Shown here: positions 15,670 to 63,159 of the stretch, in pieces | Layout of the letters: every line of letters starts with the position of its first letter | Numbering within the stretch: position 1 is the first letter of the stretch | DNA from: Tepidibacter sp. | GTDB taxonomy: Bacteria > Bacillota > Clostridia > Peptostreptococcales > Peptostreptococcaceae | DNA length: 64,000 nt | Assembly (NCBI RefSeq): GCF_025210165.1 | Contig: NZ_JAOASI010000068.1 | Location: 1 to 64,000 of the forward strand | Reading direction: 5' to 3' | Position numbers and translations under genes: made by a program | Notes under the pieces: generated by a model | What the model was told of the DNA's origin: nothing | What the model saw: the letters and a program-made list of their open reading frames with translations, nothing else | Database searches by the model: none

Positions 15670-16122
15670 ATGAATATAAATGAAATTAAAGAATTAATTA
15701 TGGCAATAGATAAAACTAGTATAAATAAATTTGATATAGAAATGAAAGATTTAAAATTATCTATACAAAAAGGTGGCATTACGAGTATGGAATGTATTAC
15801 TAATGTCGAAGATGAAGTTGAAAAAGAAATAAATATAATTGAAAACAAAGAAATCGAAAAAACTGAAACTGATGACAATACATACATAGTAAATGCTCCT
15901 ATAATGGGGACTTTTTATTCAGCTTCAAGTCCAGAAGCTGGTGATTATGTCAATGTTGGAAATCAAGTGAAAAAGGGAGATACTTTATGCATTCTTGAAG
16001 CTATGAAGCTTATGAATGAAATAGAGTGTGATGTTGATGGAGAAATTATAGAGATATTAGTAGAAAATGAAGAGTTAGTTGAATACGATCAACCTTTATT
16101 TAAGATTAAAGTTAATGGGTAA
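15670..16122 (+). CDS. accB: Acetyl-CoA carboxylase biotin carboxyl carrier protein
   Basis: The 150-residue protein has an N-terminal helical part, an acidic linker (residues about 45-70) and a C-terminal biotinyl domain with EAMKLMNE, where K113 is the biotinylated lysine. The APIMGTFYSASSPEAG motif marks AccB and separates it from pyruvate carboxylase-type carriers. RBS AAAGGAGG precedes ATG 15670. It is first in the accB-accC-accD-accA operon for malonyl-CoA synthesis, the first committed step of fatty acid synthesis. Confidence 0.95.
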   Translation: MNINEIKELIMAIDKTSINKFDIEMKDLKLSIQKGGITSMECITNVEDEVEKEINIIENKEIEKTETDDNTYIVNAPIMGTFYSASSPEAGDYVNVGNQVKKGDTLCILEAMKLMNEIECDVDGEIIEILVENEELVEYDQPLFKIKVNG

Positions 16123-35520: not shown

Positions 35521-36213
35521 ATGAATAAAATTATAGAATTAGATAAAAAACATGATTTAATAGATAAAATTAAAAATAAAATAGCTTATATACAAGACCA
35601 TCCTAAAATATCAGAATTGAGAACGAAATTATATAAAATAGAGCAAGCTGAAAAAATGTATATAAAGCAATTAGAACTTTTAAAACAAGCAATTATAACA
35701 TTAGAAAATAATTTGAAAAATAAAGAAGAGGAATTGAAAAAAATAGATGAAGATTTATACAGTGGATTAATAAAAGATATAAAATTACTTGAAAATATAA
35801 AAAATAAAGAAATGAATTTACAAGAATCAAAAGAACAAATTGAACAAGAATTGATAGAAAATATGGATGTGGTCGAAAATTTAAATATTAAAATCCAAAA
35901 ATGCAAAACTAAATGTGATGAATTAAAACAGATTATTGAAAATTCAAATCAAAAAATCAACGAAAAACTAGATGAATATACAAAAAAATTATATATTAAT
36001 TTAGAACAGATAGAAAAATTTAGAAGTGAAATAAATAATGAAAATTTAACTAAATATTACAATATTAGAAAAAGATATAAAAATGCTTTGGTGAAAGTTG
36101 AGAATAATATCTGCGGTGGATGCAATGTTGAACTTTTTATGAATAAAATTAGTAAATTAGATAATGATGAAATTATAGAATGTGAGAATTGTGGAAGATT
36201 AATGTATAAATAG
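35521..36213 (+). CDS. Coiled-coil protein with C-terminal C4 zinc ribbon (CT398/zf-RING_7-like)
   Basis: The 230-residue protein is a long antiparallel coiled coil (residues about 1-185) followed by a zinc ribbon with C198, C201, C221 and C224. This architecture matches the C4-type zinc-ribbon proteins usually found next to Nif3 genes. The chlamydial homologue CT398 binds sigma-54 and secretion proteins, so a hub role in protein or nucleic acid contacts is plausible. GGAGGT precedes the ATG. Confidence 0.85.
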   Translation: MNKIIELDKKHDLIDKIKNKIAYIQDHPKISELRTKLYKIEQAEKMYIKQLELLKQAIITLENNLKNKEEELKKIDEDLYSGLIKDIKLLENIKNKEMNLQESKEQIEQELIENMDVVENLNIKIQKCKTKCDELKQIIENSNQKINEKLDEYTKKLYINLEQIEKFRSEINNENLTKYYNIRKRYKNALVKVENNICGGCNVELFMNKISKLDNDEIIECENCGRLMYK

Positions 36214-45407: not shown

Positions 45408-45451
45408 AAACACTCCTTATATAGTTTAACAAATTTATATAAGGAGTGTTT
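45408..45451 (+). promoter_or_regulatory. Perfect hairpin enclosing the ribosome binding site of the gene at 45457
   Basis: 16-base arms AAACACTCCTTATATA (45408-45423) and its exact complement (45436-45451) flank a 12-base loop. The Shine-Dalgarno AAGGAG (45441-45446) is completely paired with CTCCTT. The next gene's ATG is at 45457, six bases past the stem. It could also act as a weak terminator for the cupin gene (TTTATT follows). Confidence 0.6.
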
Positions 45452-55337: not shown

Positions 55338-55367
55338 TTGACATTTAGTACAGTATTGTAATATTAT
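55338..55367 (+). promoter_or_regulatory. Candidate promoter of the DUF3793 gene
   Basis: TTGACA (55338-55343) and TATTAT (55362-55367), 18 bases apart, 67 bases before the ATG. Confidence 0.5.
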
Positions 55368-55433
55368 ATTAATATAAATGGAAATGATAGTTATTTTCAG
55401 TTGATTTAAATTTTCTTGAAAGGTAGATGATCT

Positions 55434-56030
55434 ATGAATAATAAATTAAATAATTGCTTTTGTACAAGAGATAATACAGATTCTTTTACAAAATGGCTAT
55501 TTCAATTACTAGGACCTGTGATATTTGGGGTCAAACCTGCTGAAATAATAAGTTTTCCTTACTCAGACAAACAAAATTCATATAGATTAATAGAAATTAA
55601 ACGTATTTTAAATAATACCAACAAGATATCCTACAAAGAATTTAGTTACTGTAATAAATGTACTAAAATATTATTTTATAATTCGACCAAACTAAACAAC
55701 ACATTATCAGAATACAGAAACTTAAAGTTTTTAAAATCATCAGGATATCCTAATAATTACGATTTTGATAGATATCTTAATTTTATAATAGAAAAAATGA
55801 AAACAGGATATATCCCAGATGAAATAGGTATATTTTTAGGGTATCCATTAAAAGATGTCTTAGGATTTATTGGCCACCCTTCTTTAAAACTTACAAAAAT
55901 AAACGGATGGAGAGTTTATGGCGACTCTAAAATATCGGATATCAAATATATTCAGTTTATAAATGCAAAAAATAAAATGAAAGAATTATTGAATTATCAT
56001 AATGTTGATAATATTTTAAAGGTAATATAA
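55434..56030 (+). CDS. DUF3793 family protein
   Basis: The 198-residue protein shows the DUF3793 pattern: LLGPVIFGVKPAEIISFPYS near the N-terminus, CNKCTKILFYNSTKLNNTL in the middle, and the strong C-terminal GYIPDEIGIFLGYPLKDVLGFIGHP with GWRVYGD. It has a CNKC pair and further cysteines near the start (CFC). The family is common in anaerobic Firmicutes and has no proven function. Relatives lie near iron or flavodoxin genes (recollection), which would fit a redox or iron role. GAAAGGTAG precedes the ATG. Confidence 0.85.
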   Translation: MNNKLNNCFCTRDNTDSFTKWLFQLLGPVIFGVKPAEIISFPYSDKQNSYRLIEIKRILNNTNKISYKEFSYCNKCTKILFYNSTKLNNTLSEYRNLKFLKSSGYPNNYDFDRYLNFIIEKMKTGYIPDEIGIFLGYPLKDVLGFIGHPSLKLTKINGWRVYGDSKISDIKYIQFINAKNKMKELLNYHNVDNILKVI

Positions 56031-56387: not shown

Positions 56388-56403
56388 TATACAAAGCCTT
56401 GGG

Positions 56404-56460
56404 ATTAAGTCTCCTTTATTATATAATATATTTAACCTAATATAATAAAGGAGACTTAAT
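56404..56460 (+). promoter_or_regulatory. Perfect hairpin enclosing the ribosome binding site of the MBL-fold gene
   Basis: 21-base complementary arms (56404-56424 and 56440-56460) flank a 15-base loop. The Shine-Dalgarno AAAGGAG (56447-56453) is paired with CTCCTTT, and the 3' arm ends at the base before ATG 56461. There is no T-tract, so a terminator role is unlikely. This is the second such hairpin in the window (compare 45408-45451). Confidence 0.7.
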
Positions 56461-57102
56461 ATGATTTTAAAAAGATTTGTTATAGGTAAAATAAGTACTA
56501 ATTCATATGTAATTCACGATAAACATACTCTTGATGGTGCAGTTATAGACCCTGGTGATAATTCTAAAATATTAATAGATTATATAGATAAAAATAATTT
56601 AAAATTAAATCACATAATACTTACTCATCATCATTATGACCATATAGGTGCTGTACAAGATCTAAAAAAGAAATATAGTTGTGATATTTTTATTCATAAA
56701 AAAGATTTAAAAGGGCTTAAAAATCCAAGTATAAACTTATCAAAAAAAGCAAATCGTAAATCTATATCAGTTGATGCAAATAAAATTTTTTTAGACAATT
56801 CAGTTATAAATATAGGAAATATATGCTTAGAAGTCATCCATACTCCTGGACATACAAAAGGTAGTATATGTTTAAAAGTGAAGAATCAAAATATAATCTT
56901 TACAGGAGATACTTTGTTCAATGATGGAATAGGTAGATTAGATTTGCCAGGTGGTAGCGAAGAAGATATGATAAATACTATAAAAAATATAGTATCAAAG
57001 TGGAGTGATGATATTAAAATTTATCCAGGTCATGGCAATTGGGATATGATGGGAAATATAAAGCTTAGAAATGAAGAATATGAATATATAATGAATATAT
57101 AA
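56461..57102 (+). CDS. MBL-fold metallohydrolase (glyoxalase II-like)
   Basis: The 213-residue enzyme has the metal motif THHHYDHIGA, VIDPGDNSKI, TPGHTKGSICLK, FTGDTLFNDGIGR and the final PGHGNW. All metal ligands are present. It resembles YcbL/glyoxalase II-type thioester hydrolases; the substrate is unknown. Its ribosome binding site lies wholly inside a perfect 21-bp hairpin, so expression is probably controlled at translation. Confidence 0.88.
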   Translation: MILKRFVIGKISTNSYVIHDKHTLDGAVIDPGDNSKILIDYIDKNNLKLNHIILTHHHYDHIGAVQDLKKKYSCDIFIHKKDLKGLKNPSINLSKKANRKSISVDANKIFLDNSVINIGNICLEVIHTPGHTKGSICLKVKNQNIIFTGDTLFNDGIGRLDLPGGSEEDMINTIKNIVSKWSDDIKIYPGHGNWDMMGNIKLRNEEYEYIMNI

Positions 57103-57190
57103 TAATATAATTTACTCATAATTCTTAATAATAATTAATATTTTGATAATAATGATATATAGACTATATTAATTATATTAGAGGTGAATT

Positions 57191-57397
57191 ATGGAGAATA
57201 AGCTAGATTATATAAAATATCATCTTGATAACGGATACAAAATAAAAAAATTAAAAAGAAAAAATAGACATATAGGTAAAATTATTCTTTCTTCTCAAAA
57301 TCATCAGAAGAAGATTATAGCTTTATTTGGTGATGAACTTATCAAAACAACTCAATTCTATTTTGAATTGCTTGATAAAGGGTATGATTTATTATAA
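57191..57397 (+). CDS. Small basic protein, function unknown
   Basis: The 68-residue product (MENKLDYIKYHLDNGYKIKKLKRKNRH...) is lysine-rich, with a beta segment IGKIILSSQNHQKKIIALFGDELI and a C-terminal helix. GAGGTGA precedes the ATG. No family is recognised. The basic patch (KKLKRKNRHIGK) could contact nucleic acid. It lies between the MBL-fold gene and the MltG-like gene. Confidence 0.65.
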   Translation: MENKLDYIKYHLDNGYKIKKLKRKNRHIGKIILSSQNHQKKIIALFGDELIKTTQFYFELLDKGYDLL

Positions 57398-61788: not shown

Positions 61789-61868
61789 TAATTACATTAC
61801 TGGTATTCAAACAAAAGAAGCGTGTATTAACACACGCTTCTTTTGTTTGAATACCAGTAATGTAATTA
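61789..61868. repeat. Very long perfect inverted repeat (37-bp arms, 6-base loop)
   Basis: The arms 61789-61825 and 61832-61868 are exactly complementary around ATTAAC. The loop-proximal part is GC-richer (GAAGCGTGT/ACACGCTTC). On the minus strand it is followed by TTTCTTTTTTT, so it can end transcription from the gene at 62040; but the arms are far longer than a terminator needs. It may instead be a small mobile hairpin or an RNA. Confidence 0.75.
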
Positions 61869-63087: not shown

Positions 63088-63159
63088 CTTATCCACAATT
63101 CAAATAAAAATATAATAATTTATTAATGATATTATATTTTTATTTGAATTGTGGATAAG
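63088..63159. repeat. Perfect inverted repeat with a DnaA box in each arm
   Basis: 30-base arms (63088-63117 and 63130-63159) are exactly complementary around a 12-base loop. The outer ends carry TTATCCACA (63089-63097) and its complement TGTGGATAA (63150-63158), both perfect DnaA boxes, pointing in opposite directions. The interior is almost pure A/T. It lies 15 bases downstream of the minus-strand regulator gene's stop. Confidence 0.75.

Follow-up and report, generated by a model that had tools for sequence, protein, structure and literature searches.

A conserved hairpin overlapping a predicted promoter is a candidate translational insulator of a hydrolase gene in Tepidibacter

The window analysed here is a 64,000-nt stretch of a Tepidibacter sp. 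contig (NZ_JAOASI010000068.1, positions 1 to 64,000; assembly GCF_025210165.1). It contains a gene for a metallo-beta-lactamase (MBL)-fold hydrolase that is preceded, on the same strand according to the open reading frame list, by genes encoding a DUF3793 protein and a small protein of 99 aa (Table 1). The best NCBIfam match of the hydrolase is TIGR03413, with a score under that model's cutoff, and the small protein has no match in Pfam or NCBIfam. Between the small-protein gene and the hydrolase gene lies an inverted repeat that ends at the base before the hydrolase start codon and overlaps a predicted promoter.

Table 1. Coordinates of genes, promoter-like sequences and hairpin parts at the hydrolase locus (window positions).
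Feature	Position	Strand	Remarks
Promoter-like TTGACA-18-TATTAT upstream of the DUF3793 gene	55338..55367	+	11/12 consensus matches
DUF3793 protein gene, 198 aa, upstream of the hydrolase gene	55434..56030	+	PF12672, E 1.5e-34
Small protein gene, 99 aa	56088..56387	+	From the open reading frame list
-35 element TTGGGA (predicted)	56399..56404	+	Outside the stem save for its last base; invariant in four species
Hairpin 5' arm	56404..56424	+	Also the promoter spacer and part of the -10 element; no substitutions in four species
-10 element TATAAT (predicted)	56422..56427	+	17 bp from the -35 element; invariant in four species
Hairpin loop	56425..56439	+	Predicted transcription start at about 56432-56436, inferred from the position of the -10 element
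Hairpin 3' arm	56440..56460	+	Contains AAAGGAG (56447-56453); last base adjoins ATG at 56461
Metallo-beta-lactamase-fold hydrolase gene, 213 aa, glyoxalase II-like	56461..57102	+	PF00753, E 3.7e-29

An inverted-repeat search returned the two arms as a perfect 21-bp stem (100% complementary) enclosing a 15-nt loop. A 101-nt RNA containing the hairpin is predicted to fold at -25.7 kcal/mol, compared with -11.5 +/- 2.6 kcal/mol for dinucleotide shuffles (z = -5.4), and none of the 200 shuffled sequences folded as well. By sequence and predicted fold, the stem in the long RNA pairs the Shine-Dalgarno sequence. The arms and the comparison with shuffles thus bear out the original prediction, made from the letters of the window, of a 21-bp hairpin that occludes the ribosome-binding site (RBS) and abuts the MBL-fold gene. 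The 3' arm does run through AAAGGAG to the base before the ATG, as had been described, with the trivial offset that the noted end, 56461, lies one base into the start codon. Other inverted repeats recorded in the window are a perfect 30-bp repeat with a 12-nt loop at 63088-63159, in which each arm contains TTATCCACA, or the complement of this DnaA box-like sequence, and a repeat at 61789-61868 with 40-nt arms that are 98% complementary and no loop.

The hairpin is present, at one locus each, in all four of the Tepidibacter genomes that make up our alignment, which include those of T. mesophilus and the congener G003 and represent only four species. In G003 the hairpin is repeated on a second contig that duplicates part of the chromosome, and apart from this contig no second copy was found elsewhere in the Tepidibacter genomes. 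A mobile or repeated element was rejected on the ground of this single site per genome, the duplicated contig excepted. The contig itself (G003:C2, 38213 bp) repeats chromosomal sequence, with two loci that match G003:C1 with the same scores and at nearly the same offset, and may be an assembly artefact. Across positions 56398-56460, 61 of 63 are invariant in the four species, compared with 65 of 135 four-fold degenerate sites (48%) and 114 of 147 other intergenic positions. Variation is confined to 56436 in the loop (C/T) and 56445 in the stem, where the change from A to G in T. mesophilus, the sole informative stem change, retains G-U pairing with U56419. Conservation sets in six bases 5' of the stem, at the -35 element, where the block opens with CTTGGG. 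Judged from this alignment, the hairpin is a genus-level feature under strong constraint. The outcome that the original prediction had named as speaking against it, loss of the hairpin from close relatives that keep the gene, was not seen within the genus, where all four genomes retain the hairpin. The closest named relative is T. mesophilus (78% identical protein), and no such hairpin was found upstream of the genes of more distant homologues, with 57% identity or less. Conservation alone does not prove the stem, because the nearby segment at 57128-57187 is also highly conserved. This segment is a non-coding block, conserved in 0.92 of its columns in the four species, that lies upstream of a small open reading frame starting at 57192 and is accompanied by the sequence TTGATA-16-TATATT.

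The sequence TTGGGA-17-TATAAT agrees with the promoter consensus at 10 of 12 positions (TTGGGA fits TTGACA at 4 of 6 bases) and appears to be a sigma-A-type promoter that overlaps the 5' arm. Scored with an approximate B. subtilis sigma-A weight matrix, it reaches 11.6, slightly more than the 11.3 of the promoter-like sequence upstream of the DUF3793 gene. First-order Markov sequence gives a score of at least 11.5 within a 15-nt start window with a probability of 7.5e-4. Such a score at such a distance from a start codon was found for 2 of 851 genes in the window plus a G003 sample, which is the number expected from the hydrolase gene and its G003 orthologue, both of which are listed with that score. 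Promoter-like matches as such are commonplace in this AT-rich region (28 found, 22.5 expected). The 17-nt spacer of the hydrolase promoter is invariant in the four species, whereas several positions differ in the spacer of the DUF3793 promoter, and this invariance fits the expectation that the 5' arm is held by pairing. With conserved promoter elements and a start predicted in the loop, the leader of the hydrolase mRNA would be about 27 nt long and would lack the 5' arm. A promoter in the 5' arm implies that only read-through RNA should carry the complete hairpin. Of the earlier reading, the occlusion of the RBS is supported by the structure and its presence in four of four genomes, and the placement of the hairpin in the leader of the gene's own mRNA gives way to the predicted promoter inside the 5' arm.

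The promoter-like sequence upstream of the DUF3793 gene, whose TTGACA is invariant in the four congeners, is a probable source of read-through transcription into the hydrolase gene, and a terminator scan called no terminator between this promoter and the hairpin. Just 3' of the same promoter, at 55385-55399, lies a Fur-box-like sequence, TGATAGTTATTTTCA, with 2 mismatches; the window contains 34 matches with at most 3 mismatches against 34.0 by chance, so the site is not enriched and is a lead only. In RNAs that carry both arms of the hairpin, the calculated cost of opening the region from the Shine-Dalgarno sequence to the AUG is 13.4-18.3 kcal/mol, compared with 2.9-3.2 kcal/mol in RNAs that start at 56432-56436. 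The corresponding values for the two upstream genes are 4.5 and 5.9 kcal/mol, both higher than that of the hydrolase RNA starting in the loop.

We propose that the hairpin insulates the hydrolase gene from translation of read-through RNA and is built around that gene's own promoter, and we put the probability of this reading at roughly two in three. Polymerases arriving from the DUF3793 and small-protein genes, with no recognisable terminator before the hydrolase gene, would produce a long RNA containing both arms, in which the 21-bp stem would bury the Shine-Dalgarno sequence and the hydrolase would not be made. Because the stop codon of the small-protein gene lies 16 nt 5' of the hairpin, a ribosome terminating there should not melt the stem. 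The gene's own sigma-A promoter, overlapping the 5' arm, would instead start an RNA in the loop, giving a short mRNA without the 5' arm in which the stem could not fold, the RBS would be free and the hydrolase would be translated. This is the most likely reading of the sequence, its conservation and the calculated accessibility, from which we infer use of the hydrolase promoter, read-through, and a difference in translation between the two RNAs.

The strong stem and conserved loop would also be accounted for if the long transcript were the one mainly translated, with the 5' arm opened or removed on need by a small RNA, by a protein or through cleavage by RNase III, whose substrates are about as long as this perfect 21-bp duplex. 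Such a regulated leader would leave unexplained why a good promoter with invariant elements is placed so that its RNA begins in the loop. No Rfam family, and hence no known cis-regulatory RNA of that collection, scores above its gathering cutoff anywhere in the window, and we know of no trans-acting partner, and we consider this explanation unlikely. A comparable arrangement is that of ISPpu9, for which an antisense RNA has been proposed to open a blocked RBS (PMC8450116). The inverted repeat flanks the predicted start, with its centre near it, and might act in DNA as the binding site of a dimeric repressor, the folding of the RNA being incidental. Operators often overlap promoters, but two 21-bp arms 15 bp apart far exceed the usual dimer sites. 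The complementarity is moreover unbroken through the Shine-Dalgarno sequence to the base before the ATG, the genomes contain no second copy, and the A-to-G change at 56445 in T. mesophilus breaks the symmetry of the DNA while keeping a G-U pair in the RNA, which as a single change is weak evidence. An operator of this kind seems to us improbable.

The position of the hairpin, 16 nt 3' of an upstream stop codon, would suit a transcription terminator or attenuator that ends the upstream genes. An intrinsic terminator consists of a G+C-rich stem followed by a U-tract, whereas this stem is AT-rich, neither arm is followed by a T-tract (the sequence 3' of the stem is ATGATTTT) and the terminator scan did not call it; termination here would also cut off the gene that the hairpin abuts. 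We regard this role as very improbable, and the original prediction had already judged a terminator a weak explanation for want of a T-tract, a judgement that the scan and the sequence after the stem uphold. An RNA thermometer could be imagined from the presence of the RBS within the stem, in a genus that includes moderate thermophiles. The predicted unpaired probability of the Shine-Dalgarno sequence, however, is at most 0.0014 over 25 to 70 C, with the modelled stem staying closed to the upper end of this range, and virtually the same sequence occurs in T. mesophilus, a mesophile as its name implies. The idea of a temperature-responsive hairpin, to which the original prediction had pointed, fails on this modelled fold, and we find it scarcely credible.

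The original prediction had further linked the hydrolase hairpin to a second one, at 45408-45451, as signs of a shared mode of control, and had proposed a wider search for start codons behind such stems. Of 935 RBS-preceded starts surveyed in the window and in 1.2 Mb of sequence from a congener, 9 have a stem of 12 bp or more over the RBS, compared with none in three shuffled sets. Two of the nine reach 20 bp and match the hydrolase gene and its orthologue. RBS-covering stems are thus more frequent than in shuffled sequence. The element at 45408-45451 is, in the window, a perfect 16-bp stem over the RBS of a 69-aa open reading frame. Mismatches break the stem in each of the three congeners, where the fold is nevertheless better than that of shuffles. 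With a score of 3.8 for its best sigma-A site, compared with 11.6 at the hydrolase hairpin, it has no convincing promoter. Because of the interrupted stem and this low score, the two hairpins are not a demonstrated common system, and the claim of shared control is unsupported.

Some other genes are also preceded by conserved stems. A perfect 15-bp stem at L160:10069-10115 (G003:C1:110069-110115) covers the RBS of a DUF1779 (YwmB-like) gene, is 94-98% conserved in all four Tepidibacter and is preceded by TGTATA, which might be a sporulation-sigma -35 element and would then repeat the architecture of the hydrolase hairpin. The open reading frame just after this gene is, as we read its translation, presumably MurA-like. 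We rejected a guess of sigG for a 257-aa gene of G003 that has a conserved RBS hairpin, since the gene encodes the DUF1779 protein. A conserved stem of 14-15 bp also lies just upstream of a SipL-like gene with SPOCS and LysM domains, at L156 about 15768-15818 (G003:C1 about 35768-35818), where it follows a terminator-like hairpin and leaves the GGGGGG RBS mostly outside. We offer tentatively, as a possibility against which the odds still lie, that RBS-covering stems overlapping their own promoters are a recurrent selected device in the genus (at the hydrolase gene, the DUF1779/YwmB-like gene and perhaps others) that keeps terminator-less co-directional neighbours translationally separate.

With the proposed insulator, a loosely defined RBS hairpin yields a precise prediction that can be put to the test, namely a transcription start in the loop. 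The proposal also suggests that ordinary metabolic genes of Clostridia are kept apart by translational insulation against read-through of the sort reported for a phage lysis gene and for a sporulation sigma factor. If such insulation is common, transcript abundance over these genes would overstate their expression, part of the RNA being untranslatable.

IS10 and IS200 are protected from external promoters in that read-in transcripts fold and hide the transposase RBS. These are mobile elements, whereas the Tepidibacter hairpin belongs to no mobile element and keeps to one and the same locus across the four species. In the literature on read-through-specific hairpins in bacteria we found little beyond T4, sigG and ISPpu9. 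In long early transcripts of T4 gene e, an inhibitory stem lowers lysozyme synthesis 100-fold; in this gene, as in soc, 49 and I-TevI, late promoters upstream of the RBS give well-translated RNAs without the 5' strand, and in phages related to T4 a promoter lies within the DNA that encodes the 5' strand (PMC3014915). T4 gene e and the Tepidibacter hydrolase gene have in common that a stem in the long transcript, predicted in the case of Tepidibacter, buries the translation initiation region. They differ in that the T4 gene is under temporal control from a phage late promoter, whereas the Tepidibacter case concerns a chromosomal hydrolase gene with a predicted sigma-A-type promoter. In B. subtilis, a stem of 20 or more pairs at sigG has been proposed to block the spoIIG read-through RNA, and this stem is impossible in RNA from the sigG promoter (PMC5942855). 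There both promoter and gene belong to the sporulation sigma factors, whereas in Tepidibacter an MBL-fold hydrolase is paired with a predicted sigma-A-type promoter. With the features that its sequence presents, the Tepidibacter hairpin likely joins the kind represented by T4 gene e and sigG, on an unrelated gene.
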